Shown: positions 11,815 to 37,508 of the stretch, piece after piece
Position numbering within the stretch: the stretch's first letter is position 1
Layout of the letters: the number at the start of each line of letters is the position of its first letter
From: Arbacia lixula
Taxonomy: Eukaryota > Echinodermata > Echinoidea > Arbacioida > Arbaciidae
Direction of reading: 5' to 3'
NCBI GenBank assembly: GCA_963669155.1
Contig: OZ022577.1
Span: forward strand, 6,406,288-6,470,287
Length of the DNA: 64,000 nt
Notes under the pieces: model-generated
What the model saw: the letters and a program-made list of their open reading frames with translations, nothing else
What the model was told of the DNA's origin: nothing
Database searches by the model: none
Made by a program: the position numbers and the translations under genes

Positions 11815-12084
11815 TAATAATAATAATAATATAACAGTTCTTGTATAGCGCATTATACCTTTGAAAAAGGTCTCAACGCGCTTAAAAGGAAAAAGAAAAT
11901 TAAGAAGAAGAAGAGAGGGAAAGTTGCTGTGAGGTGAATGTCTTGTACTAAGTAAAATGTAGCTTAATTAAATAAGTATGTTTTCAGAGCAGTTTTAAAT
12001 TGCTCAACTGTGTTAGCTTGCCTCACACTGCATGGGATACTATTCCACAGTTCTGGTGCAGCATGCGCAAAGCCCCTTTTACCA
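11815..12084 (-). mobile_element. 3' end of an interrupted CR1/L2-like non-LTR retrotransposon
   Basis: The minus strand encodes the conserved C-terminal tail of a non-LTR reverse transcriptase protein, GKRGFAHAAPELWNSIP followed by FKTALKTYLF, ending at a stop at 11964-11966. This matches the usual AF..AAP.LWN.LP....FK..LKT.LF tail of CR1/L2-type elements. The short 3' UTR ends in a GCGCTATACAAG-type motif and a (TTA)n microsatellite at 11815-11831, also typical of this group. The coding sequence stops abruptly at 12084, where the 25.4-kb insertion begins. Its upstream continuation is found at 37500-37640. The copy is 5' truncated and dead. Confidence 0.85.
12076..12084. repeat. Left 9-bp target-site duplication of the giant MULE
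   Basis: CTTTTACCA directly precedes the left terminal inverted repeat and is repeated exactly at 37500-37508 directly after the right one. Nine base pairs is the usual duplication length for Mutator-like elements. Confidence 0.93.
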
Positions 12085-12153
12085 GGCTTACTTCGAACCA
12101 TCGGGTCTTCGCGTCGGGCCGCGTTATCGCGTAACCCGACCTTTCGTGAAAAC
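12085..12153 (+). repeat. Left terminal inverted repeat of the MULE
   Basis: Sixty-nine bp beginning GGCTTACTTCGAACCATCGG and ending CCTTTCGTGAAAAC. It is identical to the reverse complement of 37431-37499. It contains eleven CpG sites. A related stretch with one small gap extends the match to about 12181, giving a TIR of roughly 97 bp. Confidence 0.95.
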
Positions 12154-12290
12154 AGCCACATTTATTTACGAAAGGTCGGGTTCACCATTTGTGAAATATA
12201 CCCGTTAAATCTACGAATAGTTGGGTCCATTAACCCGACTCTTCGTAAAATTTAGCCAGCAAATATACGAAGGGTCGCGTTCTTCACGCG
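12154..12290. repeat. Subterminal TACGAAAGGTCGGGTT repeats, left end
   Basis: Variants of (T)TACGAA(A/T)(A/G)GTCGGGTT occur at about 12165, 12212 and 12265. An inverted copy (AACCCGACTCTTCGTAAA) starts near 12232. The same motif is the inner part of the TIR (12135-12150) and recurs inside the right end at 37404-37424. Clusters of this kind are commonly transposase-binding sites; that role is inferred here. Confidence 0.7.
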
Positions 12291-12299
12291 CATTTCTAC

Positions 12300-12385
12300 A
12301 ACAAATAAATATGATGAAAAACGGCTTGAATAAAATCTAGCATTCAATCCGCACAAAGTCAGCCTTTGCCTTGAGAAGTCTAGAG
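12300..12385 (+). other. Candidate 5'-UTR exon 1 of the transposase gene
   Basis: The segment ends in ..TCTAGAG|GTGAGT, a strong splice donor at 12385/12386, just inside the left end where MULE promoters usually lie. The upstream boundary is a guess. It has no coding potential. It would splice to the candidate exon at 13046-13133. Confidence 0.4.
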
Positions 12386-13045
12386 GTGAGTACAGTTTAA
12401 ATTTCGCTAAATTGTCGAAAAATGGAATTTATTCATGATAAGTCATAGTGTTGTGGGAAATTTCCTTTAATTCCTTAACATTTTGAAATAACTGACCTAG
12501 GTTGTATATCATGAGATTATGGTGTAATCAACTCCTGCACTTTGAAAATGTTTTCATTGTCGAGAGTTGAATTTCGGCTGAATTTCCCGCCGACACCAAC
12601 GCACACGCAGCATCTTCCCCAGACTTTCGGGCAGATGTAGTCAATGCTATACTAGGATGTATTGAATTGTGTTAATGTCACCTGTGCCTCTTGCACGTGT
12701 TTTGGTGATCGGCCATAGGCTAGCGAGTAGTGCTTCCTAGTAGGGGTCCTTTAAAACTTTCATGCATACCTTTAATATTTCTGGACCAATGATTTATATA
12801 TTTATTCACATTTGTTTGGGTTTTTAAAAATAGAACTTGAACTTAATTGAACTATGTAACTCTATGAAGGATATGGACTCGCCACTCACCAGAGTCAGAC
12901 ATGAGTAGATCTAACCTTCCCATTCATTAAATGCCTCTCAATAGCCTAGAATGACAAGAATCACTATAAAAAGCACAAACAGTCGATTGAACTCTGGGGG
13001 ATTTTTTAATGTGATATAATTGTTTTTTTAAACGTTTTCTTCTAG

Positions 13046-13133
13046 ATTTTTCTACTACTTCGGCCTTCATGCCATGGATCTATTGATCTGATGCTAGCTA
13101 CTGAAGAGTGACGAGCAAAAAAAAAGGGCAAAG
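13046..13133 (+). other. Candidate 5'-UTR exon 2 of the transposase gene
   Basis: A segment preceded by a polypyrimidine acceptor (TTTTCTTCTAG) and followed by a consensus donor (AAAG|GTAAGA). It contains only very short upstream frames, so it would be untranslated. It fits between exon 1 and the first coding exon at 15005. Confidence 0.45.
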
Positions 13134-13270
13134 GTAAGAATAGAATCTAGACCTATATCTTTTCCAGAAAGGGGGGAGGGGATTGAAAGTCATCTGATAT
13201 AGATTTCCAGACACAGATTTTCCTTCAAAACTGAAATCTAATGTAGATGTAACGTTTGCATGGTGTCAAA

Positions 13271-14404: not shown

Positions 14405-14466
<62 letters not shown>

Positions 14467-16600: not shown

Positions 16601-16604
16601 TTTT

Positions 16605-16920
16605 TTATGCCTCCATCCTCGGAGATGTGTGCTGGAGGCATTATGTTTTATGTTAGTCCTTCTGTTCCGTTTTTGTTCTTGCAATAACTTAAGAACCATT
16701 GAATGTATCAACTTGTGTATATATTGGAGTGATGATGGTCTCATTAGTTTTTTGGGCAGAGGTCAAAGGTCACATACATGGAAATGACTTGTTGTCATGG
16801 TAACCTTATATGGGAGTGACAATGATCCTCTTAGATTATCAGAGTTTTTGAAAGATTTCCATGAATGTGTGATATGAGACAAGGGCGAAGGCATTAATTT
16901 GGACTGTGCACAGCGGAGAA
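16605..16920. repeat. Second, truncated copy of the GAGGCATTATG repeat
   Basis: TATGCCTCCATCCTCGG...GGAGGCATTATGTTTT, then TTCTTGCAATAACTTAAGAACC and GGTCAAAGGTCA, repeats the plan of the element at 15960-16600 but with only about one internal unit and more decay. Confidence 0.65.
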
Positions 16921-19900
16921 TCCATGTATTTTTTTTTTGTCTGGTTGTTGAGGCATTGGTATTAATTAAAGGCAAGGACCCAGTTTCATTTCCCAGAGGA
17001 GCCATTTTTCAACCTTTGCAAAAAAATTTTAAAAAGGGGGGTAGGACACTATTATCATTCAACTGATTTCACATTTATTTATTTTTTATCAAGGAAAGTT
17101 GCAAAGCTGTATATTCACAGAAATGCACAATGCACACGAGTTTAGAGCGTAGCTTCTAATTGGTTCCTCTTTTATTATGCCATGCTTTTAATTAGCATAT
17201 TCTTCTTCAGGGCTTTTATTAAGGCTTGGCCTTATTATTAAGCTTGGCCCAGTAAAAGTTAAACATTACCATGAGGTGCCAATGGCATTCTGTTCAGGCA
17301 TTTCTTTCCCTACAATGAAAAAGAAATGAATTTTCAACTGTATTTACATGTATATTGAAATTAGTCTTTGTAAGTGAACTTAGTCCATAGTCCAAATTCT
17401 TTTGTTTTCTTATATATAGCACTATAATCATTTCATCGGATGACATCGAGATAGATGACATGCCAAGCTACTCTACTGCAAGAGTTCAGGAAAGGTAGGG
17501 AAAAGGATCTCTTATTGAATTTTTCAGCAAGTATCACACATGAAGAAATTTTCTCCACAATAATGGAATGATGAGATTAGAATATAAGTTGTATCTTAAA
17601 GAAAAGCCAGTAGCCAAAAAAGAGAAGTAATCTGACCGTTTGAGAATGGCTAGTAATATCAAGGAGGTTTACTTGGGGTCATGGCTTTTTCTGTGGTGTA
17701 ATTTTCTTAGTGATGAAATAAGGGTCAGATATTACAGCTTTTCATGTGCCCAGTACATGGTTTAAAGGGGAAACACAATAAACCTTTGTGCCTTTAATGA
17801 ATAGTTATTTCAATGTACCGGTATTTAAAACCATTTTCTCTTTTCACATAAACTGAATCCATTGGAATTGGTTTATTATTTAGAGATAGACAGCAGACTG
17901 TTCCATCTTGATTTTTTTTTTTAATTTTAGCATTTCAATTTATTTATTCAGTCTGTTGATTTCATTGAACTATATCATGATTCAACCTGCCCCCCCCCCC
18001 CCCCGCAGTATTGATGGTTCACAATATAGTTTAGTAGGCCTAATAATGGGATAAGCGCTGTATGTCATTGTTACACATGTATTTTCTAAGAATGTCTGCA
18101 TTGGAAAAAAAATGTATTGACACGTTTATTAATAAATGGCTTTAAAAGTGAACTTATATTCCATTCTTTTGTTTTCATACACATAGCACTATAATCATTT
18201 CATCTGATGATGAGGCAGATGACATGCCAAGCTGTTCTACTGCAAGAGTTCAGAAAAGGTAGAAATGTATAGCTATATCTCTAAATTATTGAAGTTTCCA
18301 GCTACCACAGATCACTTGTGTGTAACTTTGAGATTTACTGCAAAATATATCTCCCAAATTAAGTGTTTGGTTATGGGAACCTGGTGGTCCCTGCATCAAG
18401 CATATGGGAAATACAAAGTTAAATACTCAACAGGTTATCTTACTCTTTTGAACACACGAATCATTGCCAAATTATTAATGAAAGTAAATATGATATTGGA
18501 GGAATGACCTTTATTTAGAATATATCTATTCCAAAGGGACAATTGAAATGTAATGGAGTAACTGAATGTGTCACCTGATTACTGTGATGTGGTATATTGG
18601 CCCTCCCATTTCCTGAAACAGGCAAGATAAGCAAGTTCTTATACATGTATTTCTTTTTCTGGATGTCTTGTACAACATTCCATTTAGATAATAAACTTGA
18701 ACTGACAGTATTATTATGGATAGGGGGGATACTAGGGGAAAAGAATTGGTTATCGATGTCACCCGTGATAGAATATTAATGTAAAGGGAATATGTGTTCT
18801 ATATTATGTTTGCAGAACTGCACGTATGAAGTTCAATACACTTTAATAGAATTTGTTTGTTTCTGTCACCAGGTCTCGGCCAGAGTTCATTCAGCCGAAT
18901 GAACCGAAGCGTGTGAAGACAGCCAACAGCCAGTTTGAATGTATGCTTTATCGGGAGAAATGCCATGCCATCAAAGCGAGCAAAGCTTTCTTCAGGGATA
19001 GCACAAGTGTAGCTTCACTGATGCTATCCACAGCTACCAAGGTAAACACTGGTGTTCCAGTAGCATGTGACGATGAATTCGCCTTTCTTGTGGATACTTC
19101 CAGTCTTGAATTTGAACAGGACCTTACATGCGACGAGACCGGCAAATACAAAAAACCCAGTTATTCCCGATGTGAGTTGGCCGTGGATGGTGAACACAAC
19201 ATATTTGGGTTAAAAATGGGTCCCAAGACTGGTACTGAAAGATACACACTTCTCCGGAGGTATTATCCCCACCGTGATACCCCTGGATTTTTCAGGACAA
19301 TATATGAGCTACAAAGGGATGGAGTGCAGAAATGTCCAGTCGTCTTAATACGATATGAGTGGAGAGGACAGAAGACAGCATTAAGAATGACGGCTCATGG
19401 TCACTGCAGACAGAATGATAGCCCCTTCATCCGATCAAAGAAGGCCTTGATTGAAGAACTGAAGAAGCCATCATGACAGTCAGCACAGGACAAGCTGAAC
19501 GAGAAGTTCAAAATGCAGGGTGGTAGTGTGGGAGTAGATGCATTTTCGTCATTGCCTCGTGACAGGCAGCAGATCTACCGGCACGGTACAGGAGGGAAGA
19601 AGCAAACTGATTTCAACAAACTAATTGAGAAGAATGCATCTGGAGAATTTGTAAGGAGTGTTGAATTCATCAATGATAAGTCCAAAGGCCCTTATCCTAG
19701 ATGTGTCGTTTACACAAATAAACAAATCGAAGACATGAAGAGATATTGTTCAGCAGGCAGTATCATTTCGTTTGATGGTACATTTGACCTTGGTCAAATG
19801 TATGTCACTGTTGCGTCATACAGACATCAAGATTTTCTGAATAAACGGAATGAAAAAAATGTACTCATGCCAGGCCCAGTATTGCTGCATGCAAGAAGAG

Positions 19901-21427
19901 ATACTGAAACGTATCAGTACTTTGGACACCAGATTTCCAAAGCTCTGGGAAATGAACATGTACCCTTTTTCGGGACAGATGGGGAGAGTGCAATGTACAA
20001 GGGTCTGAAAAGCTCACCAAGCTTTTCCAATTCCAAACATCTTCTCTGCATGATCCATCACAAAAGAAACGTGGAAAGCAAGCTTGAGAAACTTGGAGTG
20101 CACAAGAACACTGCAAAAATTCTCAGATCGATCTATGGGGAAGAAGTCCATGAAGCACGTTACGAGGGACTTGTAGACAGCAGTAGTGACAAGGAGTATG
20201 AAGAGGCTCTTCTCAATTGGTCTACCAAATGGGACCAAATGGAAACAGAAGAGACAGGAAGGCCTCCTGCATTTGCGAATTGGTTCAAGCAATACAAATC
20301 CCAAGAGGTGAAAGAATGCATGTTGAAACCATTAAGGCAGCAAGCAGGAATGGGAGACCCACCGCGCCAGTATAGTACGAATGATTGTGAGTGTATGAAT
20401 TCTATGCTGTCCAAGTGGATTGGTGGCAAGAAGTAATGGAACGATCTTGTCGATAGCCTTGAGGACTTTGTCAAGTCAAAGTACACAGAACTGGAAATGT
20501 CAATCATAGGCTTAGGTGAGAGACGACCAGCCAAGAAGTGTCTTGAAAGAACACCATTGGAATGGTCTCATATGAAGTCAGAGGAAAAGAGAGTATTACT
20601 AGAGAGAGCGAATCTTAGTGTACCAGAACAGTCAGCTAAGGAGCTTTCAATATCTCCAGAAGAAAGTGGAATCGGAGGATTTACTCAGTATGAATTGCAA
20701 GCTGTCTGGAGCAAGGCTGGTAAGATCATTGATTGTAGTCATAGCATCGTTGACTTTCCATCTACCAGTTCTCAATCCATTTGCTTTGATGGAAAGGATC
20801 ACCTCAAGGTGTCATGGCACAATGACTTGTATGTTTGTGACAGGCAATGCAGATCATTCATCCTACACAATCGTCTGTTTTGCAAACATACCTTAGCAGT
20901 TGCTGAACAAAAGGACAAATTGGCAGCCTTCCTCTGCAGAGTCAATACTAAAAAGAGAGCATCATCTGTTAATCTAGCCAATGACGTCCTCCAGAAACAA
21001 TGCTCTGACAGTGGTAAAAAAAAAGAGTGCAACTAAGAGAAGAGGTGGCAATAACAAAGTGTCCCAACCTGTCACAACAGTTATCCCCAAGCCCAGTCAA
21101 GAACAGCCTTTCTGCATTGCTCGTAAAGTGGGTGTCATCAAACGCTGCTATGGATGCAAGCAGGAGTTTGGACAGAAGATGAATATGCCTCCACATGATA
21201 TAGTGTTGAAGAAAATAGACATCAGAGAGTGGGTGGACAAACTGACAGGTTCTGTCATGCTTTCAAAGAGCCTTGTACCTACATATTACCATTTCAAACT
21301 GAATTGTCTGAGAATAACCTATCCTTATACTGAATTGAAGGACATAATTGAGCATGATGAAGTTCTTGAGCATTTGAACCCCGACCACAAAGTTATTCTG
21401 AGAAATTTTGGTCTTGATATTGCCTAA

Positions 21428-22848
21428 ATAATGAAGATGTGTACATGCAGAACAAACACTCAAATACCATGAGAATTAACAACTGTTATTTGGTTGTTAG
21501 AGAGAGAATACTTACTGTACAAGAAAAAATAGTACTGAACAGTGGTAGGATGGTAAGTGCAAAAACCTCTTGCAAAGATACACTGTCACTGCCATACTTA
21601 CTCACATTATACTACTTCAATAATGAGTTATGTGAGAGGTTTACATCGATTCCATAGCTTGTTCTTTTCTTGAATAAGTATACAGAATGAAAGTTGGGTA
21701 GATACACTGTTATAACAGTTGGAAATAATTAAGCTTTTATCTTTATCTTAGGGTGAGTAGCATGGCTATTTTGTTTACCATTTATATCTATCATTTAACC
21801 AATGTAATATTAATATACAAAATGTGAAAAATAATATTTGTAAAGACCTCTTTAAGTGTGCAGGTCCCTAATTTTTCTTGCATTGGCAGCAGGCCATTTT
21901 ATATGTGGTCAACAATTGATTGGCTGTATCACTCTTTTAGCTTCTGGTTATTTGATGTTTGTATTAATCAGCTTAAAACTTAAACACAGATTAAATTGAT
22001 ACCATCGAAGGTTTGTCTGTTCCTTCCATTGAGGCTAATCATATTATTGATCTTGATTTTTAAGGGTTAAGTCATGTAATACATGTATATGTCAGTAGAT
22101 ATTACATGTATATTGTCTCCTGTATAATGTATTGTTAATGCTATAACAAAGCATCTTGATTTGAAGCCTAAAGTCAAGTTTATTATTTGGGTTCAAGTAT
22201 CACATACAGTTCAGGATTGCATTTGTAACACTGTTGAAGTTAATTTCATACTTTTATGAACACATGAAGTGACATGAACATTTTACCACTCTAGTCTAGT
22301 ACATGTACTACATATAAAATGTCTTCTGAATTATAAATCTGTCTTTCGGATTTTATCTAAACATACATTGTATGCCTGAGTAGCAATGTTAAGTTCATAT
22401 AAAGTACATGACATCGTTGTTTTATATTTCACTTTTTTTTTATTGTTTAATGGATCTTGAGTGGTGTCCATCCATCTGGGATGGTAATGGAGACTTGATG
22501 GTTTGATCTTGAGTTTTGACCTTACTTGGAAGGTATATGATGGGGAGCCCATGCCAGAGTAGAAGGTTACCTCAAGGTCAAGGTACTCTACAGGAAGCAT
22601 ACACTTTAAGTTTCTGTTTTTATTGTTGGGGTAGATAACTTCACAATAAACCTTAAATGGACCTCTACTTGGTGAAAGCTAGGTCGTAGAAGTACATTTA
22701 AATAGGTTAGAGATCAAATGAGGTCAATATATGTATTAAAATTTACCAGCAAGCACACAACCTAGGCAGTTAGACACATTATTGGACACATTGTTACACT
22801 TGTGACTTGACTGGTTACTAATATTTTTAGTCATTGTGTGCATGAGAT
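21428..22848. other. AT-rich 3' flank of the transposase gene
   Basis: No coding signature. It probably includes the transposase 3' UTR, with AATAAA at 22645-22650 as a candidate poly(A) signal. Short AGGTCA-type half-sites occur near 22573. Confidence 0.4.
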
Positions 22849-23330
22849 CATGGGCGGAAATCCCGGGGGGACGGGGGGGGTCGCGTCCCCCCCACCATTT
22901 GGAAAGGGGGGGACACAATATCAAATGTTCCCCCCCCCCACTATTTTCTGTCTGATTGAATTTTTTTCGAAAAACGTCATAACCCCCCCCCCCCCCCCCA
23001 CCACCACCATTTCGAAGGGGGGGGGGGACACAATATCAAATGTCCCCCCCCCCACTATTTTCGGTCGTGTACCCCAACGAGACTGGGCGGATTAATTTTT
23101 TTTCGAAAAACGTCATCACCCCCCCCCCCCGCCCCCCCTCCCCCCCCCCCCCTCCCCCCCCCCCACTGAGAGCATTTTCAGAGACTGGGCGGGATACAAA
23201 AAAATGAAGGAAAAAAAACACCTCCCAAAATTCCCATCACTAACCCCCCCCCCCCCCCCCCCCCCCCGCTCAGCTACTTATTGAGAAAAAACATGTCCCC
23301 TCCACCTTCGGGGAGCGATTTCCGCCCATG
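22849..23330. mobile_element. Nonautonomous element with CATGGGCGGAAATC ends, copy 1
   Basis: The left end CATGGGCGGAAATC is the exact inverse of the right end GATTTCCGCCCATG. The interior is poly-C/poly-G rich and partly duplicated: ACACAATATCAAATG followed by poly-C and ACTATTTTC occurs twice, near 22914 and 23029. No protein is encoded. A shorter copy with the same ends and the same internal order is at 34076-34377. No clear target duplication is visible. Confidence 0.75.
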
Positions 23331-25130: not shown

Positions 25131-25139
25131 GGAGTGGTG

Positions 25140-25375
25140 TGAGAAGCTATTTTGTCGTAATTGACGTGTTTTGTCACCCACGGGGAAGAGTCCTGTGCGC
25201 GGGAGAGAGTCGGGGAAGTCTGGGGACTTGCTGCATGAGAGTGAGTGCATCCACCCCAACTCTAGCTGCCACTGTTTCTGCTGTCATGAGCGGGGAGTGC
25301 AGACGGCCGTCGTGTGGACACAAATTCCTCCGGGAGGCAGGCAACAGGATCTTCAATTCTTCAAAATAACTGTAA
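25140..25375 (+). other. GC-rich exon-like block 1 (possible captured exon)
   Basis: A GC-rich block of about 230 bp in AT-rich surroundings, ending in a consensus donor (AAAATAACT|GTAAGT at 25375). One frame is open from 25171 through the donor and includes CHCFCCHE and PPGGRQQDLQF, but I do not recognise a family. It precedes two further exon-like blocks and the TMEM53-like exons on the same strand. It may be a 5' exon of the same captured gene or an unrelated fragment. Confidence 0.35.
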
Positions 25376-26128
25376 GTCTGAAACATGCCAGTTTGCGGGG
25401 GGTTTCTACAACTGTTTAATTTCTGTATAGGCAAGTCTTTCAGATTAAAGTTTGACTTTCTAAAAATCAGTGCTTTCAACTAAAGTGAACATTTTAAATG
25501 CAAACAATTTCTGACACGAAAATTACCATTTCAAATTGAATGATTTCTTCTAGTTCGGAAACTGAACGTATATATTTTTCAGCAAAAACTGAAATGTGTT
25601 TAATTAGTAGTCATATGTCATAAACGCCCTCTTTTAGCAAGTAACAAAAGTCGGCCATTTTATGTCAGCCATGTCGAACTTTGAGGAAGCCTATATTGTT
25701 GGGTATTTCTCATTGATCGGTACCACCGTGTATTTACGGCATATATTTATATTGGGATGAAAATGAGAACTACTTTAGCGTGGCTATATGTTTTGATAAT
25801 CAATGGTTTATACAACTTACGCATTTTGTTAACAAGCGGTCATAAGTAATAGTTGCTGGTTAAATGGAAGTATTGTACAAAGCAGAGGTATGAATCATTC
25901 TAGCACTGGACATTATTATGCTAGTAAATGGCTATTATGGTAATTGGAGATATCGAGGAGATATCCGGTTGCTGTTTTTTTTTTTTGCGAAGTCTATTAA
26001 TTGGTAAACCAAATAGTGTGATTATTGTCATTTTAAGATGTCGTGTGCTTTACAAAATATAAAGTTAAAGCGTACAAGTTATACTTGGGTTGAATATATA
26101 TTTATGATTCGGTGTAACTGTATTTCAG

Positions 26129-26345
26129 ACGTAATCAAGGGTTCAGCCATCACGTGCCCTTGCACCCAGACCGGGCGGTGACAGTTCGGTTTCCTGGTCT
26201 CCTTCATCGACGTCGCCGAGCATCGAGGATCGCAACTACGACCACCTCAGCTCGGGCATCGACGTCCTACCGTGTAACCTCGACAGCGGGTCTTTCGATG
26301 AACTCGCGCTTCAAAAATCAACGTTATCGCGATCGCGTCGTCAAG
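26129..26345 (+). other. GC-rich exon-like block 2 (possible captured exon)
   Basis: A block preceded by a pyrimidine-rich acceptor (CTGTATTTCAG) and followed by a donor-like CGTCAAG|GTAACC. It is much richer in CpG than its flanks. One frame is open from about 26144 to the donor, with a Ser-rich start (GGDSSVSWSPSSTSPS) followed by IEDRNYDHLSSG. The family is unrecognised. An alternative open frame from 26154 is Arg/Thr-rich and looks like a shadow. Confidence 0.35.
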
Positions 26346-26835
26346 GTAACCGGGTTGTATTGACGCTGCACACTGCGCTGAACATTATCAACCGGCCATG
26401 TGCAGGTTTTGATATCTGTACCGAAGATAGTTTGATGTAAACCCATAATTTCATTCATTACTTTTGATATATATATGACTAGTAGACAGAGTCAATCGGA
26501 AAGTATTTGATTGTTTATCCATCATCATGCCTATTTAAAGATTATTGTATTGAGGCAATATTTCACTGTTCAGTTCAATTGATATGTGTATGTTATTGCG
26601 TTTCATTATAATCTGATTATTTCATGCATTCCTTTTAGTTAAAGTTTCATTTTGAAACTACATAAATATTAGTTCCGATTTTTATTAATTATTTATCTTA
26701 TTTATGAAGAAACCCACTATGTGACAAACAGCATTCATCCCTTCTAAATACTCTTTACCTGGCGCAACATAGAATAAAATGAGTTAGCAGCTTTAGCTCC
26801 TCGGTGTAATTATGTTATTTACATGATTTATCTGC

Positions 26836-27350
26836 ATGCTCTTTTTACACAGGTGTACCCAATTTATCAAGCCAGTGAGGCATTTACGGGTAAACCTTCT
26901 TCTGCATTGTTTATACTTGACCCGTGCTCGTATTGGGTATTCTCATTTGACTCATGCATACTTATTTGCACTAGAAACTCCACCTCAATGCATGTCATGT
27001 AATCATACACTAACAATTAAACACATTCTCCTTGAATGTGTTGAACTTGCAAATATTCGTATTAACTTTTTGATTGTCCTGACCTCAAGACATTATTTAG
27101 AGATATTTTGCGATTATGTGTTACAAACTTTCTAAAGAAGATCAATCTTTACACTTGATTTTAAGTGGAAAACTGATCGTATCCCAATCACAACATGTAT
27201 ACCCTTGGGCAACGTATTTTATTCAAATTGCCTAGTCTTTCGGAGCATTAAACCGTCGATCCCGTGTAAAGGAGAGTCACACCATTGGCACGTTAAAGAA
27301 CATGCTTCTCTTTTCATAAAGAGTAGGGAAGTTATTCCGAGGAAGTAGTT
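26836..27350 (+). mobile_element. 3' fragment of an RNase H-type non-LTR retrotransposon
   Basis: The plus strand reads ARIGYSHLTHAYLFAL, then PPQCMSCNHTLTIKHILLEC. This is the well-known C-terminal CxxC...H....C zinc-knuckle tail found after the RNase H domain of I/Jockey-type elements. The frame ends at 27135. The downstream GCATTAAACCGTCGATCCCG and GGCACGTTAAAGAACA segments look like the element's 3' UTR. It is strongly 5' truncated and non-functional, and nested in the MULE. Confidence 0.75.
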
Positions 27351-27665
27351 AACATAATTGATTTATTTCTGATTTATAATCCTTCTCAAATTCTGTAAAT
27401 CACATTAGGGAAACTTGAATGGTATAATCTTTTTAGATGAACTGTTCGACACTTATATGACACTCAAGTGTTAGTAGTGTCGTTAATTTCTTATCAGTCA
27501 ATCAATCAACCAATCATTGTTTATACTTACATCTCTGCAATACTCATGTTGTGCCGCTTTTTATTAATCGTCGCTATTGCCGATCAGTCACTATTAATAT
27601 TTTCCTATGTGAAGTCATATGTTGATATAATACATGTTTCAATTTTGTATATTTTTTAGTTCTAG

Positions 27666-28648
27666 ATTCGATGTACTGGTGTCATGACGCGACCCATCGA
27701 CATCGCCTGGCCCGCCAATGCCAAGGAGATCGCGCGGGAGATCCTGGATTATGTCACGGACGGCGACACACGCCCTCTCCTGGTCCATGCCTTCTCCGTC
27801 AGCAGCCACGTGCGTCTGCGGAGCGGAGTAGCCGTTAGGCCTATGCATCCGTGCATTACCGCATCGTTGCTCAGATCCTGTACAGTTGTATTCTCTCAAG
27901 GGATAGCTACGAGGGTATCTACTCGTAGGACGCCAACAACTCCTTTACGCAGTTTGTCACCAAGAGGGTTACAGAGACCTACCATAGGCTGACCAACAAG
28001 TACACCATGGATAGCATCGTCAAGGTGAGCTTGAAGGGTGAACTCTCCCGTGAGCATTGGCGTGAAGATGTGTAGTTCGCCAATGTGGTTTTCAGGAAAT
28101 GGTAATGTAAAAGTTAAAGGTCCGTCTCATTGGTGGAGATGTCGCAAGGACAGCATAGATAAGTTACAGAGACTTACAGGAGACTTGGAAAAAAATAAAA
28201 CACATTCGAATTCACGATGACCCGTCTAGTCTCGCAACGACTCGGTCTCAAACAAGCCACATATTTCTAACATTTTACAAGGCATAAACTCAGCAGTAAT
28301 TTACATCTTGGGGAATCATAATTCATTATGATTCATTAATGTATGAAGGAAAGCGAGAATTCCATAAGAATTTCCAAAGAAACAAAGCAGAGTTTATTAA
28401 CGGTCCTACTGTTCTGCATTGTCCTTCAGGTGAATGAGATCTTTACTGGCCGCACGGTCAAGGCGCCCGCCCTGAACCTCTTCTTTCGCGATGACCCGAT
28501 CGCCACGGCCAAGGAAAACGACGAGTTGGTCGAGCAGTGGCGCAAGCATGTGGAGAGCGACCTTGACGTCAAGTGTTGCAGAACTCCCCACTTTGCGAAG
28601 CACAGTGACGAGTAGGAGGAGAGCATCTACGGCTTTATGGCAAGCTGA
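27666..28648 (+). pseudogene. TMEM53/DUF829-like gene fragment, two exons, broken
   Basis: Exon A (27666-28024, CTAG acceptor, AAG|GTGAGC donor) encodes FDVLV, then PIDIAWPANAKEIAREILDY and PLLVHAFSVSSHV. This is the family's GFDVL...P..LWP...A....L.FL....P.LVH.FSVG motif including the catalytic-serine-like region. Exon B (28430-28648, CCTTCAG acceptor) encodes APALNLFFRDDP, EQWRKH and a C-terminal PHFAKHSDE segment, matching the C-terminal half of the alpha/beta-hydrolase-like fold. TMEM53-type proteins are about 280-350 residues, so the N-terminal part is missing here. Damage includes a 1-nt deletion near 27682, a second frameshift around 27810-27830, TAG codons in both exons (27926-27928 region and 28613-28615) and loss of the family's glycine-rich nucleophile turn. 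The introns are retained, so it was copied from genomic DNA and not from mRNA. Confidence 0.7.
28287..28375. repeat. Direct repeat, copy 1, flanking TMEM53-like exon B
   Basis: AACTCAGCAGTAATT..CATCTTGGGGAATCATAATTCAT continuing to AAAGCGAGAATTCCATA(A/G)GAATT. It is repeated at 28681-28784 after the exon, with a few substitutions and an insertion of about 16 bp. Confidence 0.85.
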
Positions 28649-28680
28649 CACTGCAGCGCTGCCGCACGTTCCAGTTAGAG

Positions 28681-28784
28681 AAACTCAGCAGTAATTTGCA
28701 TCTTGGGGAATCATAATTCATAATGATTAATTAATGTATCATTAGTGTATGTATGTATGAAAGCGAGAATTCCATAGGAATTCC
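28681..28784. repeat. Direct repeat, copy 2, flanking TMEM53-like exon B
   Basis: Second copy of the 28287-28375 sequence. The extra bases (ATCATTAGTGTATGTATG) make it slightly longer. The pair brackets exactly one exon. Confidence 0.85.
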
Positions 28785-28789
28785 GTCGT

Positions 28790-29225
28790 CGGCGGGGACG
28801 CTACTGTAGGAAGCGCCAAAGCAGGCCGATTTAAAGTAGAATGAGTGAGGGAGCTCAACAAATGGACACTAGGCTAAATCTTCCTAAAGGAGCGGTCACT
28901 ATAGACTGTAGGATGGACTTTGCCACGACTTCACGAAGGATGAGTGAGGGAGATAATTAATCCGCGCAGCCAGCTTGACAAATGAACAAGAAATCTCTCC
29001 TACCAGAGATGCCATTATAGGATGGACTTTTGCGAAACTTGACAAAATGGTAAGGGAGAGAGAGAGCCCGCTGAGCTAGCGCAACAATCTTGCCTAAAAT
29101 GAAGGTCACGATGAATTAACGGATGGGCTTTGGAACGATTTGAAGAGAACGCGCAGAGGTAGCTCAACTAATCAACGCTACATCTCTCCTTAAGGAGAGG
29201 TCATTGAAGGGTGGACTTTCCCCAC
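28790..29225. repeat. Strongly diverged tandem array, about 100 bp period
   Basis: Four related segments share a core reading CTCCT(A/T)..AGAG..GTCA(C/T)TATAGGATGGACTTT, followed by a GACTT/GAAGG segment and AGTGAGGGAG. The GGATGGACTTT-like cores sit near 28911, 29019, 29121 and 29210. The units are poorly conserved, so the array is old. Confidence 0.6.
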
Positions 29226-29229
29226 AGAG

Positions 29230-31940
29230 GAACACCGGGGTAACTCCACACATGTCCTATATAAATATCAGTGACACATCTCTCTCTCTTGATTAAGCTG
29301 CGAGCTTTAGTATTGACTGGTCAGAAATAACTGCCAATCTGAATTGTTTACATGCCGAAACTCGCACATCATTATTGAACCAGCGGACTGCATCTCCTTT
29401 GGGGTATTGAGCATTAGTTTATAACTGATGCAGGGGAACAAAAGGTATTTTGTATCCACCCATTGGACTGTCAGTATAGACATGCTCACCGTAATAGCGG
29501 ATCATATTCAGATATGCCTAGAACGAGTATTTACCTAACTTGTGACATATGACTCAAGACATAGATGTATGTGTTATGTCACACAAAGAAGAATGTTTCA
29601 TTATCATGTATGTATATTATGAAACTGATATGTGAGCCAAGAATCTGGAGGTTGAGATTTTGTACGTCGTATACTGTGTAAAGTTCACTTGAAAGAGTTT
29701 GGATTGATGAAAAAGAACCAGGGGTATGGGGCATGGGAAGAAGGATTATTAAGTTGATAAGCATCCTGACTGACTGGTTTACCATGATATGCAATTGATA
29801 CAAAGAGCTCAGTACAGAGAACTGTGTGGCACTCCATGATAGCCTACGTCACACGACAAAGCACCCAGAGAGAGAGAGATAGTATATCAAGCAGTCATAT
29901 TAACAGAAGATAGCTTGGACAGACCACAAGGCAAATCATGATCGTTGAATTATTTCACAAAAAATTGCATGCATGAATACTTTTGAACAAAGAATGATAC
30001 GACCTCTCTTAACCCTAATACTACCGGGGTATTTCAAAGCATGTTAGGGTGGGGGGGGGGGGGGGGGCATTATGGCCATGGGCCGCCCGATTCCCTCTTT
30101 TTTTTTTTATAAGGGTCAAGAATTATGTACTCTACCAGTTGTATAGCTAAATATACGAAAGTGCCTTTATGTTTTTAATTCAATAATGTATGCTCATTTA
30201 TGCAAGAAATCACTAGATAAAGCCTTAGGAATATCAATTTCTGGTACAGATATCTTTAAAAAATCCCTCATCAATTCCCGAAAAAAGGATAGGTTGTGGT
30301 AATTATTTCTTACGTATTTCATTGTTTTTCGTCAAGCGCATTTTGCGATTTGGGTGTAAGTGTGCGTGAATGTGGGTGTATGTGGGTTTGTGTGTGTTGT
30401 AATTATTTACACTTCCTATAAGAAAAGTATTTACATAAAATGGGAAATCTCCTGCATGATTTTGTCTGTATGGTTGTGCTCAGTCATATAGAGAAATAGC
30501 GAAATTTCAGTCACATGTGTTTGGTAAACGTAATCTGGTATTTGCACGGTAGGTCCGATCGTCATAAATTTGGTATCAAAATTCGCGAAAAGGATCAGAA
30601 AAAAAAAATCGTGTTCGTTTCGAAATATTGAGGTGTTCGGAAGTACCGACAAATAAATGACGGGTGGTGGGGGACTAATGCACCCCCGTGAGTATTAGGA
30701 TTAAAGGATTATGTGAAGCACGTTGAATTCTCAATATTGCACATATAAGGGAAAGTCGTCCCATGATGTATTAGTGTAAGAGACCGGCGGCATGGATCAT
30801 TCTAAGAAACATATCCCCGTCACACACACGCCTGAGTTGCAAGTAATAGCATGTGAAGTGCACAGTATTGATGCAAGAACACGACATGGAATTCATTCTC
30901 TATAAGAAGCAGAATAATTGTGGTTGTATTTAATTGAGGAAAGCAATGTTTGAGCAAACTATTTCTCTCTCAAATGACATTCTATTGCATGTGAATCTCC
31001 AACGATATAAGCTATCCATCATGTACATTGTATATCTATATATTCATGTTATCAGAATCAGTGTCGGCGTGTGTAAAATATCTAATTGGTGATTCAAATG
31101 GCCTAGCTTCTTTGCATTGTAGAGTGTACAGCTCGGTTTTTCTTGATTTCCCCCGAGATGTTCCTTCACATATACATATATGATTCTCTCTGCTTGTGAT
31201 CTGCGTCGGGTTTCACTGAAACTCCTTGCGTCGGACGCAAGGACGACGCAGGGAAGGATTGTAGAAGTTTGCAAGCAAGCTGCCAACTCCACGTAGAAAA
31301 ACACGGACGGCCGGTTGTGACCATGGCATAAGGCATCCTAGTATAAATGTACTTATCTTTTAAAGGATGAATAAATAAGAACTTAATCAGTTATATTTCT
31401 AAGCGTTTAATAAAGACAGCATTATAAAAGAACAGGTATGTATTTTTAATTTTTAGTTCTTGAAATAAAATGTATGTTTGTCACATCCCACCTAATATCC
31501 CTCATTCTTATTTTCAATTTTATATTGTAATAAATTATTTTACTTTCTTACTCTGATTTTAGTTGTATTTTTGTGGGGAGGGGGGGGGGGGTCAGCCAGC
31601 AAATAATATGTAAGAAAACAACATGACATTTTTTATATTCAGGAGAGTTTTTGTCGACAATTGCCAAAGTGTTGCATCACTGTTTGAATTGAGTTTTGAT
31701 TAGGACAATTCTCTGCATCCACAATACAGTGTATAGATATTTGAATGTTTCCTTCATCAAAACAATGAGCATTTACATGATTATACATGGACCAGTTCAT
31801 CATTACCGTATTGATATATGTCATGAATTTGAAAATGTTGATGCATTCAAGAATAAAAAATATATTTGTGGGGAAAATAAGCAACCGTCTACGTCTGCTT
31901 ATCTGAATATGGAGTACCGAAGTGTGACGCCATTTGAGCA
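29230..31940. other. AT-rich DNA within the MULE, no gene recognised
   Basis: Contains a poly-G run near 30050-30067 and a short GT-rich stretch near 30360-30400. Open frames up to 157 codons exist (minus strand, 31639-32112) but have no recognisable motifs and one is overlapped by an open frame on the other strand. Confidence 0.45.
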
Positions 31941-31946
31941 TTATTG

Positions 31947-32103
31947 TCAAGACAAATGGCTCTAAACAATACGGGCAGAACAAGCAGCGGTGATTACAAC
32001 GGGGAATGTAATTGAGAATGCCGGACACTATCCCGGTATACAGTATCGGACAGGTAAACCTCTCAGTTGAGTGAGTTCGTTTAGAGCCAATTTGTCTTGA
32101 CAA
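31947..32103. mobile_element. Short inverted-repeat (MITE-like) element
   Basis: TTGTCAAGACAAATGGCTC..AAC at 31947-31970 is inverted at 32079-32103 with a single-base difference, separated by about 108 bp. A 157-bp non-coding element with 24-bp inverted ends is the simplest reading. No clear target duplication is visible. Confidence 0.55.
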
Positions 32104-32588
32104 CATGTTCATATGACGACACTACTTCGGTACTCTACATGAACGAATGCTTGCATCGGAAGAGAAAAGAACAACGAAGATGGCTTTAGAGAAACAGAGG
32201 GGGGGGGGGGGTGGGGGTAGAGAGAGAAAAAGGGAGGAGGAGGGAGAGAGAGAGGTGGAGAGAGAGGAGGTTGGGAGAGAGAGAGAGACGGAGAGAAAAG
32301 CGAGCGCCATGGAAAAGTAGTAACATTTATCAATTATCTCACAGCATAGAAGATGTCATATCATAGTTCACGTTACTACAAGATTATATCAGATTTATAG
32401 GGCTCTCGGGTCACTTTCAGGATACATTTGGGCAACAAATCCCCCCTCCCCCATGTGATTTTTTTTTCATAAATTGCACATTTCCTTATATCAAAAAGAA
32501 AATTACCTAAGTAATAGATAGAAACTTGTTGACAATCTGCAAGTATATATGTTTAATACTCTATGAAAACATACCAACATCAGCAATC

Positions 32589-32662
32589 GGTCTGTTGGCT
32601 CAGTTGGTAGAGCGTCAGACTGATAACCTGAGGGTCATGAGTTCGATTCCTGATATAGATGC
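32589..32662 (+). repeat. Decayed tRNA-Ile(GAT)-like sequence (SINE head)
   Basis: Box A (TGGCTCAGTTGG), an intact D arm, an anticodon loop CTGATAA (GAT at 32622-32624) with four of five stem pairs, and a box B-like AGTTCGATTCC are visible. The acceptor and T stems are badly mispaired. It therefore cannot fold into a working tRNA and is best read as the tRNA-derived head of a SINE or a tRNA pseudogene. Confidence 0.65.
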
Positions 32663-32733
32663 TCTTTTGGTTTTTTTCTCGTTGATTTGAAACTAATAGT
32701 CTATACGCTAAAATCACCAAGCAAAACCACCGA

Positions 32734-33060
32734 CGTCTTATAGCCTAGTGGTAGGGTAAGCGCCGGGACTACCTCACACTCGTGCTAGCGAGCACGGGTT
32801 CGAAACCCGCTAACTCCAAGGTTGCAAAGCCAAGGTTCAAGGATTGTCGGATGGCCCGGCAAAGGCATTGGGATCGCCCTTGTTCCTCCCCTAAAGAGTT
32901 AGAGTCTATAGTTCTTATAGGCTATAGTTTTTAGGAGGTAGGAAGGGATACGCGATGGGCCGGTCGCCATACCAGAAGGGAACTAATGGTAGTCGGTAAA
33001 GGGTGATCAGCCCGAAGTCACGACACCTGAACTCCTGGCAACCATCGCTTAACCTTTTAT
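32734..33060 (+). mobile_element. tRNA-derived SINE
   Basis: Box A TAGCCTAGTGG at 32741-32751 and a perfect box B GGTTCGAAACC around 32797-32807 lie about 45 bp apart. A stem-loop between them (CTCGTGCTAGCGAG) resembles the long variable arm of a type II tRNA. The T stem (CGGGTTCGAAACCCG) is fully paired. A non-tRNA body follows, to a T-rich end near 33060. Such elements are transcribed by RNA polymerase III and moved by a partner LINE. Confidence 0.65.
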
Positions 33061-33232
33061 TTTTTTGTTGTTGAACTATTGACTTTAATTGTTGTTTTCC
33101 TTCTATCTTTGATGACAACAATCATCCAGAGCCTTATCATCTTTGTTGTTCCGTTTTTCATTATTCCATATTCCTCTTCTTATTACTTTCTGCCCGGTTT
33201 TTTGTCCATTGATTTTCTACACTTTCCTGGAG

Positions 33233-33304
33233 CATGTTGCATATAGGTTTTAAATTCTACCTTACCATCAATGGTAGCTACCGAGAAAACCTATCTGCAA
33301 CATG
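33233..33304. repeat. 72-bp hairpin
   Basis: CATGTTGCATATAGGTTTT is inverted at 33286-33304 with one mismatch, around a 34-bp loop containing a further small palindrome (TACCATCAATGGTA). It lies just upstream of the Tc1-like relic; a link is possible but unproven. Confidence 0.7.
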
Positions 33305-33344
33305 ACCCTGATCTCTGATATCATCCAATCTTTCTTATTTGCAC

Positions 33345-33622
33345 AGAGTAGAGGGTATCCTCAACCAGCAAGGCTATCATTCAATCCTACAGCGGAAGGC
33401 CTTCCCTTCAGGGAAACGCCTGATCGGAGGAGGGTTCGTTTTCCAGTAGAACAATGACCCAAAGCACACGTCACGACTATTCAAAGAATATGCAAAGGCT
33501 ACTTGAAGAAAACGGAAGAGACACAAGTCCTGGCAATCATGGATTGGCCGCCCCAGTCTACAGATTTCAATCCCCTTTCTTGTCATTTTATGTTTTTGAA
33601 TAAAAGAAAAAGAGGTTTCCAT
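33345..33622 (+). pseudogene. Tc1/mariner-type transposase relic
   Basis: The plus strand encodes GGFVFQ-stop-NNDPKHTSRLFKEY and, one frame over, DWPPQSTDFNP. These are the conserved catalytic blocks of Tc1-like transposases (FQ.DN.PKHTS and .WP.QSPDLNPIE). Stops at the Asp-Asn block and before the second block, plus a frameshift, show it is dead. Only the C-terminal third remains, and no inverted termini can be assigned. Confidence 0.8.
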
Positions 33623-34075
33623 ACAAGTTAAACACTAAATATCGTTTCATTTTATTTGCGTGTTTGACTTCTAACTAGGAAAAGGAAGAATGAATGAAGC
33701 TACGCATTTAACCCTGTATAATGGTGAAAAGCTCTGGATATCTAGATTACGCGAATGTAATAAAAAGGTTAGCATTTTGAGAAAATGCCATATTGACTGG
33801 TAGGCAGCCATTTAATAGAGTATAACTTTGTTTGAATCAAGGATAAAATGTACATTCTTACATACTATTCACTTTAAACGAAACTTAATTGAACTATGCT
33901 ATCAGCCTGAATATCAATAAAGCCTACCAATTATACACTGAATGCAGGTGTTCCTAAACTTTTGGAGGTTCAGTGTATCTCTCTTACTTTCTCCCCCACT
34001 ACATATTACTCTTACTTCCTCTCGATCTCCCTATACGGTACACACAGCTGGCCACCATACCGTACCGGGTATAGG

Positions 34076-34377
34076 CATGGGCGGAAATCCCGGGGGGGAC
34101 ACAATATTAAATGTCCCCCCCCCCCACTATTTTCGGTCGCGTACCTCCACGAGACTGGGCGGATTAATTTTTTTTTCGAAAAACCTCATAACCCCCCCCC
34201 CCCCCCCCACTGAGAGCATTTTCAGAGACTGGGCGGGATAAAAAACAAATGAAGGAAAAAAAAACACCTCCCCAAAATCCCATCACTTCCCCCCCCCCCC
34301 CCCCCCCCCCCCCCCGCTCAGCTACTTCTTGAGGAAAACATGTCCCCTCCACCTTCGGGGAGCGATTTCCGCCCATG
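34076..34377. mobile_element. Nonautonomous element with CATGGGCGGAAATC ends, copy 2
   Basis: Same termini as 22849-23330 and the same internal sequence order, including ACACAATAT.AAATG with poly-C, GAGACTGGGCGGATTAATTT, ACTGAGAGCATTTTCAGAGA and CTCAGCTACTT. It lacks one internal duplication, hence the shorter length. Both copies lie inside the MULE and in the same orientation. Confidence 0.75.
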
Positions 34378-36950
34378 TATGAGATTAGTATTTGTAGCCT
34401 TCATCAGTTGTTGAAAAGCAGTTTTACTATTTCACTTCATTCTGACTTACATGATTTAGCATTTTCAAGAAATGTGCATCTGATTACAGACAGTCCATGT
34501 ACAGACAGTCCATGATAATAAGGAGGGTGACCTAATATCAGCTTACTGGTCTGTCCACTGTCATGCTGCCCACAGTTGTTGTTTTTTTTTAAAATCAAAT
34601 TACTTGTGGAGATATCATTTATGGCATGTTGCTAACCATACTAAAGTCCATGCTTGAAAGCATATTCCAGATCTAATCTTCAAATTTTGAACACTGATAG
34701 AAATGTCTGGTAATTCTAGAGGAGCAGGTTTACAAACAGGAGTAAAGAGTATTCAACAAATAGCAGTTTGATGTAAGTTTGAATGGAACTTCTATACTCT
34801 AACTTTGTTAAATCATTTCTGCACATTTATGCACAGGTTTTAGACCACCTAATTAAGTTACAGTGTCTTTTGCAATTTTTCCATGAGCATTCAAACAAAA
34901 GCTCAAAATGTGATATATTGCTATTAATTTATAGATTTCTATAGGGAATAATCAGCCAATATCATAAACTCCTAGCTCCTTGCATAAAACCTTAACAACC
35001 GTTTCATGAAATTATGCAAAGACTTCATAAAGTTCTACAAATATATTTTGTTTCTTATAATATTTTTTACTTGTTTTTGCTTGATTGGTTTTTGTTTATT
35101 TTTCACTTCTACTTGATGCAAGGCTGAATATCCCCTGTTATGCATGTAGAGTACTGTCTACAGTTTATGTCATTGTTTTTTATGCCTCCACCTGATATCT
35201 TTCTTAGCTGGTCAGATCCTTCATGAGTCTCTTAACGTTGGTGACAAGACAGATTGAAGTGAGAACATATTTAGTTTGCCTAATCTTGTTTAAAGTTCAT
35301 CAACTCATCAGGTCTGCAGGTGCATGTGTTTTTGGTCATTAATGTCAATGTGACAGGAAGGCTTTCTTTTAGTTGAGTTTAAATACTTTGTTTTACTATT
35401 CTTTTAATCTTGCCAAGTTATGCAGAGCATCAAAGATGGCTTTTGTTTCTGTGTTTGATATTTTAATGCCTCTGCCACTTAGTAAAGGCAGAGGCATTTT
35501 CATGCTTATTGTTCAATTTTTTGACTGTTAGAAAGTAGTTAACTTATAGTATTCAACTGGACGATCACTAAATTATAATTAATAACAGCATGGTGATTTT
35601 GGTATGGGGGAGGAGAGTAGTGGTGGCATCAAAGTTACATGTATATGCAATAAATGAAAAGGGAAAGCCCCCATTTGGGAGTGCGGGGTGGTAGAGGGGC
35701 TCTTGCAGTTTGCATTGTCACGTATTTTTTTCTCTGTGTATTAATTAGTCACTTTGCCCAAGCCAGAGCAATGTACATGCCTCCCCCCCCCCCTCCCTCT
35801 AACCTACACCACTGCAGTAATTGCATATAACAAGTGACACATTTTCTTGATAACTTGTGAGATAAAATGAGATCTAATAGCATAGAGTAAATATGATTCT
35901 ATGGATCAAACATATACATGTGTGCATTGAGCATTATTGTAGCCAGGGGAGGGGAGGGGGGCACATTGTGTCCCCTAGAGTCCTCCTGCACCTTAAGAGC
36001 ATTTTCTAGTAAATTTGCTGACCTTTTCTAAAATTGTATAGGAAACAATTTGATGCATAACCATGATAACTTTGGTATGCCTGTCTTGCCAGATATCTTT
36101 TGTTGCCATGTCAACCATAATTGGCAGCCATGCCAAACAGAAAGGTTGTGTTTTTTTTTCTCTAATACCATTCCATTTGACAATGAATCCTTGGGTTTTA
36201 CTGCTTCAGTTTTCTCAAGGGTCTAAATATGAAGTTATAATTTTTGAATGGGTTATAAATAATTGTACATGTGTATATGATTTTCCCTTTTCTTTTGTGA
36301 AGAAAACATTATACAATCGATATGAAATAATTTTGATAAAAGAATTTTAATTTGTATACAGAAAAGAACAATTTTAGCCCATTTTATGTATTTCTTTATG
36401 TTCCGAATAACACCCCACTTTTTGGCCTTTCCAAACATCAACCTCATTGAATCGAACTTAATGGCAAACATGAAAGTATAACTTGTGATGACGGACAAAC
36501 TTGATTGCATGCAGCAGGAATCCCTTTGTTTTGGAGTCCTTTTACTTGTTGATGTTTTATGCGTTAAATGAAACTTTCATGTTCTACTTTTCTGCAAATA
36601 AATGTGATGAAATAATCACTGAAACTTTTGATGGCGAGTTCTGTGCACAATTTGTCCTTGTCGGTGTATGATGAGTAGAAAATACAGTCATGGCGGGGAG
36701 GAGGTGACATTAAAAGAAAATAGCTCGAAATTCTATTAAGAAGCACAATTGATATTAAACAACAACTATTTAGGTCGAATGGTCAGACAAAAAGAACTGA
36801 ATAGCACTGGACCAACTTGGGGAGTAGCTGAAATTGATAACTGCAATGGTACGATGTGATGATATATCTATAGACCAAGGGTCATTGGACAAACTAAAGT
36901 CTGGATAAAACTAAACGGCTTGCCATGGATTAATTACGTGGGCCTTTAAA
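34378..36950. other. AT-rich DNA within the MULE, no gene recognised
   Basis: No exon-like blocks are seen. A short inverted pair GCCTCTGCC..GGCAGAGGC lies at about 35468-35496, and poly-C/poly-G tracts at about 35786 and 35945. Confidence 0.45.
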
Positions 36951-36958
36951 ACAATGAA

Positions 36959-37266
36959 TAGGGGCAGCGCCAGGATATTTTGAAGGGGGGGGGGGGGACC
37001 CATACATGACTACGTTTTAAATTGAAAAATAAGGGTATATTACAATTACATAACTCGTACAGCCCTCTTTTTCCCCGTGTCTTTTTTACGCCTTTATATA
37101 AACAAAACAAAAAATATGTAGGTATTATTTAGTTCCATGACCCAGTCCTTCCTTTCCCCATCATGCTTTATTTTTTTTCCTTGTTCAGCCTTGTTCTTTT
37201 TTTTTTTCTCTCTCTCTCTCTCTCTCTTCTTTTCTCCTCCCCCTGCCCCCTATAAGGGCGCCCCTA
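36959..37266. mobile_element. Possible small nonautonomous element with AGGGGC(AG)CGCC ends
   Basis: AGGGGCAGCGCC near 36959 is mirrored by GGCGCCCCT near 37258-37266, enclosing poly-G, A-rich and CT-rich sequence. No target duplication is visible and the inverted match is short, so this is tentative. Confidence 0.35.
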
Positions 37267-37403
37267 CGTCTTAAATGGTTTTAGAATGATTTTACCCGAT
37301 GCTTCGTAATTTGAAGGTACCTTTTTCATAAATGTTCACGTAAAGAATTAGTCTTATGTCAATGACCACCATTACAAAAAATAACATTTTTTCCACCTGA
37401 TTT

Positions 37404-37430
37404 ACCCGACCTTTCGTAGATAAAGGGACT
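37404..37430. repeat. Subterminal repeat, right end
   Basis: ACCCGACCTTTCGTAGATAAA at 37404-37424 is the inverse of the TTTATTTACGAAAGGTCGGG motif at 12161-12181. It extends the right TIR inward to about 97 bp with a small gap. Confidence 0.75.
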
Positions 37431-37499
37431 GTTTTCACGAAAGGTCGGGTTACGCGATAACGCGGCCCGACGCGAAGACCCGATGGTTCGAAGTAAGCC
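37431..37499 (-). repeat. Right terminal inverted repeat of the MULE
   Basis: Ends in CGATGGTTCGAAGTAAGCC. All 69 bp match the left TIR (12085-12153) in inverse orientation without a mismatch. Confidence 0.95.
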
Positions 37500-37508
37500 C
37501 TTTTACCA
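37500..37508. repeat. Right 9-bp target-site duplication of the giant MULE
   Basis: CTTTTACCA, identical to 12076-12084. Confidence 0.93.

Follow-up and report, generated by a model that had tools for sequence, protein, structure and literature searches.

A Mutator-like transposon of Arbacia lixula with a second, TMEM53-bearing element nested inside it, and evidence consistent with joint movement of the two

Is a block of 25.4 kb between perfect inverted termini a single giant transposon, or one transposon carrying another? The question is raised by a locus of the sea urchin Arbacia lixula (contig OZ022577.1, positions 6,406,288 to 6,470,287 of the forward strand), here called the window, that is, the whole stretch of 64,000 nucleotides that was analysed. 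A first description made from the letters alone, referred to below as the sequence-only reading, had taken the block for one giant Mutator-like element (MULE) with intact ends. Comparison with the rest of the assembly (606,990,701 bases in 590 contigs, in which the window is the copy on contig 2, C2) leads to a different account, in which we have considerable confidence: very probably, a second element of 11.5 kb sits inside a MULE whose own length is about 13.9 kb (25.4 kb less the inserted element and a single copy of its 8-bp duplication), and after the nesting the MULE ends most likely moved the two as one compound.

The outer element and its relatives

The left terminal inverted repeat (TIR) of the outer MULE (12085..12155, plus strand) and the right one (37404..37499, minus strand, with its perfect part at 37429-37499) are inverted copies of each other and identical over 71 bp; the sequence-only reading was right about their perfection and slightly short in giving a length of 69 bp. 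Over 97 bp (12085-12181) the left end is 96% identical to the right one. Counted end to end, from TIR to TIR, the block measures 25,415 bp, in agreement with the spacing of 25.4 kb first reported. The target site duplication (TSD) CTTTTACCA stands directly outside both TIRs, at 12076..12084 and 37500..37508 (both plus strand), and is a perfect 9-bp repeat as had been described; the chance of a 9-bp match at two fixed places is about 1 in 262,000. MULE TSDs are 8-11 bp long, usually 9 bp. Copies of a subterminal motif, ACCCGACCTTTCGT, are found at 12134..12280 (no strand assigned), two of them exact and three with 2-3 mismatches, and of 10 matches counted across the window (at most 3 mismatches), all but two fall within the two element ends. 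These subterminal copies are likely to be binding sites of the transposase, and are regarded here as putative ones.

When the flanks are joined with a single CTTTTACCA, one uninterrupted reverse-strand frame results that is similar to a long interspersed nuclear element (LINE) and that we take to resemble the reverse-transcriptase tail of such an element. The joined 211 flank bases match all 40 scored places (of 56 first-look candidates) over 206-208 bases, with 98-99% identity and across the junction. The outer block is thus an insertion into repeated LINE sequence, since the joined flanks read through and occur uninterrupted elsewhere, and the empty site is present many times.

Searching the assembly with the 97-bp end gave 24 hits. 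Eleven of these are left ends, of which all but one (C21) have a partner; among the 13 right ends, C1, C15 and C59 have none, so that 10 complete pairs result. The nine complete pairs other than that of the window span 9,318, 6,505, 6,554, 6,306, 11,714, 6,402, 6,247, 8,386 and 5,414 bp, and further paired ends at a spacing of 20-30 kb, for which the sequence-only reading had suggested a search, did not appear among them. The size of the 11.7-kb sister copy (C9b) is explained by a private insertion of ~5.4 kb near window position 37,003. The 9-bp duplication is exact in seven of the 10 complete pairs, the window pair among them; the remaining three have an 8-bp duplication, a 9-bp duplication with one mismatch, and a damaged right end with none.

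All nine sister copies are internal-deletion forms, six of them with common breakpoints near 13,142/15,089 and 15,711/18,217. The transposase frame is incomplete in each of them, and the expectation that sister copies might consist of the transposase core only was not borne out. Window positions 15,745-17,034 are unmatched in every complete sister copy; a tandem array with a 151-bp unit (2.9 copies, 16066-16499) is also found inside the outer MULE. The 3.1-kb right part, available from 13 copies, exhibits pairwise identities of 96.8-98.8%. Nine of the 11 left ends in the genome, including that of the window, are identical over 97 bp. This rules out TIR identity as a clock for the window copy.

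As the sequence-only reading had noted, the ends enclose a transposase of the MULE type; however, its frame (18862..21036, plus strand) is interrupted by in-frame stops at 19474-19476 (TGA) and 20434-20436 (TAA), and its C-terminal part continues in another frame (20978..21427, plus strand) after a frameshift at an A-run near 21,016. We take the transposase to be of the DDE/SWIM type; it is the sole recognised gene of the outer MULE frame. With two stops and a frameshift, the window copy lacks the intact transposase of an autonomous member, and the frame is incomplete in every other copy of the assembly. The core frame of the window gave matches below the curated cut-offs to the Pfam families Mutator (PF20700, E 0.00033) and MULE (PF10551, E 0.0057), and the read-through of the frame matched PF20700 (E 0.00075), likewise below the cut-off. 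A match to PF10551 at E <= 0.01 was obtained for 5 of 14 aligned proteins, and among 7 transposase relatives scanned P0036 passes the cut-off for MULE PF10551 and P0015 that for Transposase_mut PF00872. Both are more distant relatives than P0003-P0006; the core of P0003 aligns with that of P0036 (33% identity in 336 residues). Residues D305, D373, C396, H399 and E510, which we take to be the DDE and C(2)H residues, are invariant in the alignment of 14 proteins, as are the finger residues C659, C663, C674 and H676. The three best named relatives come from sea urchins, Strongylocentrotus purpuratus (61% identity), Lytechinus pictus and Diadema antillarum, and the remaining named organism is an oyster (29%). 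Assignment to the MULE superfamily is based on these linked relatives of the transposase, together with the TSD and the TIRs.

The nested element and its cargo

Within the outer MULE, positions 22849..34377 (plus strand) are occupied by an element of 11,529 bp that begins with CATGGGCGGAAATC and ends with GATTTCCGCCCATG. It is bordered on the left by the 8-bp duplication CATGAGAT (22841..22848, plus strand), the empty site of which is seen in sister copies, and on the right by TATGAGAT (34378..34385, plus strand), which has one change from CATGAGAT. The whole of 22,849-34,377 is missing from the nine other complete copies and from C1. In these (10 of the 12 copies spanning the site) window positions 22,848 and 34,376 adjoin, with an overlap of 10 bases; the two extra matching bases at the insertion site are also the last bases of the nested element itself. 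The uninterrupted empty-site sequence TGTGCATGAGATTAG was read in all nine loci looked at (C9b not included).

The nested element also occurs elsewhere in the genome with TSDs of its own. The 8-bp duplications are exact at two loci on contig 17, C17a and C17b (GTTACATG and CAAGTACT), on C12 (CAAAGATA) and at C15; they agree in 7 of 8 bases in the window, which has the same insertion as C15, and in 6 of 8 at C14b, and are unreadable at C18, C14a and C1. A 2,561-base stretch over the TMEM53 exons was found in full length at no fewer than 34 places among the best 40 of 920 candidates, which were the ones scored; the window is identical and the 33 others have 97-98% identity. For a 669-base stretch near the left end of the nested element, 40 of 40 scored places (110 candidates) had 98-100% identity. 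Positions 22,849-34,377 are a second, separately mobile element of high copy number, with termini, TSD and empty site distinct from those of the outer element that encloses it.

Two terminal units in direct orientation frame this element, a 5' unit of 482 bp (22849..23330, plus strand) and a 3' unit of 302 bp (34076..34377, plus strand). Each is delimited by inverted 14-bp termini, and ~10.7 kb lie between them. When 11 units were compared, the five 5' units differed from the six 3' units at positions that are constant across loci; overall identities among the units range from 89 to 99%, and sorting by identity is less clean. Since the differences between 5' and 3' units are common to the loci, a new insertion does not involve copying one unit from the other. 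The element is hAT-like by TSD length and termini, a label that we base on the 8-bp duplication and on a presumed likeness of the ends, and from which we infer mobilisation of the hAT type. The genome has 21 matches to the hAT dimerisation domain. No hAT partner for the nested element was found among 100 of 619 end-motif places listed (contigs 1, 2 and part of 3), and the three hAT matches on the same contigs are at least 33 kb from any listed end motif.

The cargo includes a decayed genomic copy of TMEM53 (DUF829; 27659..29995, plus strand) in the form of exon pieces with intron and 3'-flanking DNA and with broken frames; an extra short TMEM53 match lies at 30787-30847. The parent gene was located at G000:C17:8457580-8459583. 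The match of the cargo to it has 77-91% identity and takes in the intron of the parent as well as 1.3-1.5 kb of DNA downstream, so that a retrocopy is ruled out. Seven further loci with TMEM53 pieces (L038, L039 and L041-L045) are ~89-96% identical to the nested element over 2.2-3.5 kb in all, and therefore represent older subfamilies of it. TMEM53 pieces are highly repeated in the genome, with several distinct lesion patterns (1,281 first-look candidates, 107 scored), a picture that probably reflects several generations of carrier elements. The nested element also contains a tRNA-Ile-like sequence (32590..32662, plus strand) and a second, weaker tRNA-like sequence (32734-32818) below the Rfam gathering score; both are perhaps captured tRNA genes.

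Probable joint movement and its alternatives

Joint movement of the two elements was assessed from the copies on contigs 15 and 59. The contig-15 copy corresponds to window positions 19,058-37,499, with a gap of ~26 bases near 19,961. In it, the nested element is inserted at exactly the base, and in the orientation, seen in the window, with the duplication CATGAGAT exact on both sides. The contig-59 copy (G000:C59:1-4583) starts one base ahead of the inner duplication, inside an outer MULE copy. Similarity to the window stops at most 4 bases from the outer terminus in C15 and exactly at the terminus in C59, and no similarity was detected among the right flanks of C2, C59, C15 and C1. In a tree of the 3.1-kb right part (13 copies) C15, C2 and C59 are grouped with support 100/99.

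The inner parts were compared in the same manner. In the 3' part of the transposase, compared in four copies, 7 sites split C2 and C15 from C14 and C1. The first stop of the transposase is common to C2 and C15 and missing in all five other copies that reach its position; the second is reached by two copies, and is present in C2 and absent from C15. The long A-run of the C2 transposase is also found in C1 and C14, and not in C15. A first stretch of the nested element (8 copies) has 3 sites exclusive to C2 and C15, as compared with at most 2 for other pairs of uniform copies; rows L033, L034 and L037 of this alignment are partly divergent and stayed in the counts without being classed as uniform, and the divergent pair L037 and L033 has 38 sites in common. 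A third stretch (5 copies) has 5 sites exclusive to C2 and C15 and at most 1 for any other pair.

Taken together, a single origin of the compound is strongly supported. In at least one event, the nested block was most likely carried along by the MULE ends, because C15 has the insertion at the same base, sites and a stop in common with the window, similarity that ends at the terminus, and unrelated flanks. The proposal of the sequence-only reading that the large block moved as a unit thus finds support, by way of the contig-15 copy with the same nested insertion. Contig 59 probably carried the nested element as well, since its start adjoins the inner duplication and it groups inside the clade; the start of the contig is perhaps an assembly break caused by the nested element.

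The course of events would then be as follows. In an ancestor, the TMEM53-bearing composite of 11.5 kb would have inserted downstream of the MULE transposase, with formation of the 8-bp duplication, and the MULE ends would subsequently have mobilised the entire compound, with descendants on contigs 2 and 15 and probably 59. By binding to the TIRs and to the ACCCGACCTTTCGT copies next to them, a MULE transposase could move whatever lies in between. The mode of movement would be cut-and-paste, and the enzyme was most likely supplied in trans by another family member, because the compound ancestor already had the first premature stop.

Several observations weigh against this account. The complete 25.4 kb was found only once; the contig-15 copy is without the part before window position 19,058 and its outer TSD is unreadable, and on contig 59 the presence of the nested element is deduced, not seen. 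Not all sites agree: one conflicting site in the 3' part of the transposase sets C2 and C14 apart, C15 and C19 have 2 sites in common in the outer right part, and a second stretch of the nested element (9 copies) has no site exclusive to C2 and C15, while C15 and C5 have 1 common site there and C18 and C91 likewise 1. Pfam support for the transposase of the window stays below the curated cut-offs for both families and for the read-through, and the four closest full-length relatives of the sea-urchin type (P0003-P0006), all scanned, gave no Pfam match at E <= 0.01. As to the source of the enzyme, translation that begins after the first stop might still yield a protein active in cis.

Could the whole 25.4 kb nevertheless be one giant type of MULE, with TMEM53 as cargo captured by it? 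Perfect ends and a TSD do enclose the whole block, but all nine other complete copies are 5.4-11.7 kb long, 10 of the 12 spanning copies are without the middle, and the middle has its own TSD, independent insertions elsewhere and an empty site in nine loci. An element of 25.4 kb in its own right, as first proposed, is accordingly highly improbable. An artefact that joined two unrelated ends is almost certainly not involved: nothing was found in its favour, the 9-bp TSDs match, the LINE frame is restored across the join, and the nested junctions were found independently on contig 15. The assembly was built from HiFi reads, according to part of its description (PMC11310861). For the nested element itself, the direct terminal repeats, which start and end with the same short inverted motif, could suggest a retrotransposon with long terminal repeats (LTRs). 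However, LTR retrotransposons have a TSD of 4-6 bp and terminal repeats that are identical at each insertion, whereas here the TSD is 8 bp and constant positions distinguish the five 5' units from the six 3' ones across loci. A scan of three frames of the nested element, a small sample, revealed no recognisable reverse transcriptase; a LINE-like piece at 26,827-27,132 gave only a weak match to zf-RVT (E 0.46), and no LINE identity is claimed for it. We have rejected the LTR interpretation as very unlikely.

The remaining alternatives concern the relation between C2 and C15. If the swelling came later, the MULE would have landed alone and been hit by the nested element afterwards, and the nested insertion on contig 15 would be an independent event at the same base. 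Nested insertions are common in MULEs, as part of PMC3903597 describes, the sister copy C9b has its private ~5.4-kb insertion, and the copies of the nested element diverge in an almost star-like pattern, in which the distance between C2 and C15 is just slightly less than that of other pairs. On the other hand, the identical base and orientation, the exclusive common sites in both elements, the common stop and the support of 100/99 make such a coincidence improbable. Segmental duplication or gene conversion, in place of compound transposition, might also relate C2, C15 and C59, and it would be compatible with a contig-15 copy that is truncated on the left and has an unreadable TSD. We consider this unlikely, in that homology ends at the outer terminus (exactly in C59, within 4 bases in C15), the four right flanks are unrelated, and C2 is itself framed by a perfect TSD, with LINE places that give its empty site. 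The explanation that we retain is transposition of the compound by the MULE ends.

Surroundings and comparison with known systems

Two further features of the window lie outside the block. A 369-bp near-palindrome (47751-48119), 89% identical to its own reverse complement, recurs in the flanks of outer copies on C12 and C15 and is probably a foldback miniature inverted-repeat transposable element (MITE). A frame of 610 amino acids (61842-63671, minus strand) contains a TEAD-interacting omega loop as in FAM181 proteins.

Non-autonomous elements of the hAT superfamily are the closest known class for the nested element. They have in common with it the 8-bp TSD and similar termini, and differ in that the nested element has two direct terminal units around 10.7 kb. 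A broader interpretation, which we put forward tentatively and with slightly more doubt than confidence, is that of a eukaryotic composite transposon. In it, two MITE-like units in direct orientation would have spread 10.7 kb of host DNA, including TMEM53 with its intron and downstream sequence as well as tRNA-like sequences, to dozens and perhaps hundreds of loci with TSDs of 8 bp. One of the copies would then have been taken up by a MULE and moved by the ends of that MULE as part of the 25-kb compound.

The locus offers a traceable animal case in which a cut-and-paste transposon took a second large one on board, after which the two apparently travelled as a compound. It bears on the size of the load that TIR elements can carry and shows a route for the second-hand travel of a host gene copy, and the TMEM53 pieces make it possible to study how a transposon family captures a host gene and how that gene decays. 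If the composite interpretation is true, the 25-kb compound is far above the size at which DNA transposons reportedly lose efficiency: in the review PMC6431247, transposon efficiency is said to fall once the cargo exceeds 6 kb, and in one rice study described there no Pack-MULE was longer than 7 kb. Full-length arthropod MULEs measure 1.4-10.0 kb, as given in part of PMC13359780.

The MULEs of animals have been assigned to the clades Ghost, Spectre and Phantom, according to excerpts of PMC6446971. The single complete Spectre element described there has perfect TIRs of 74 bp and an 8-bp TSD, and the outer element likewise has TIRs and a TSD of MULE length. The animal MULEs have a MULE-like DDE transposase, as the outer element probably does, and the zinc fingers of the animal MULEs vary by clade (RING, C2H2, FLYWCH or SWIM). 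In contrast, the outer element is larger than the animal MULEs of the same excerpts, with ~13.9 kb even without the nested element (PMC6446971).

Nested travel as such is already known, because rice MULEs with a nested Os0548 MITE have multiplied together with it, and nesting did not block transposition there (PMC3903597, in part). The passenger of the rice MULEs is 274 bp long, as compared with 11.5 kb and a host gene copy here. Among the open-licence papers listed on giant, animal or nested MULEs, Pack-MULEs, composite hAT elements and TMEM53 transposons, none was recognised as a description of the compound; its new aspects look to be the size of the nested passenger, its load of a host gene, and the evidence of compound movement. 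Pack-MULEs and the Pack-TIRs of animals, including Ssk-FB4 of Drosophila, are TIR transposons that carry host gene DNA, as here, according to PMC8277862, whose survey of 100 animal reference genomes reports no Pack-MULE. Host DNA in a Pack-MULE is captured directly between the MULE ends. Here, unlike in Pack-TIRs, what lies inside the nested element is TMEM53 DNA that still has intron and downstream sequence, a second-hand load for the MULE.

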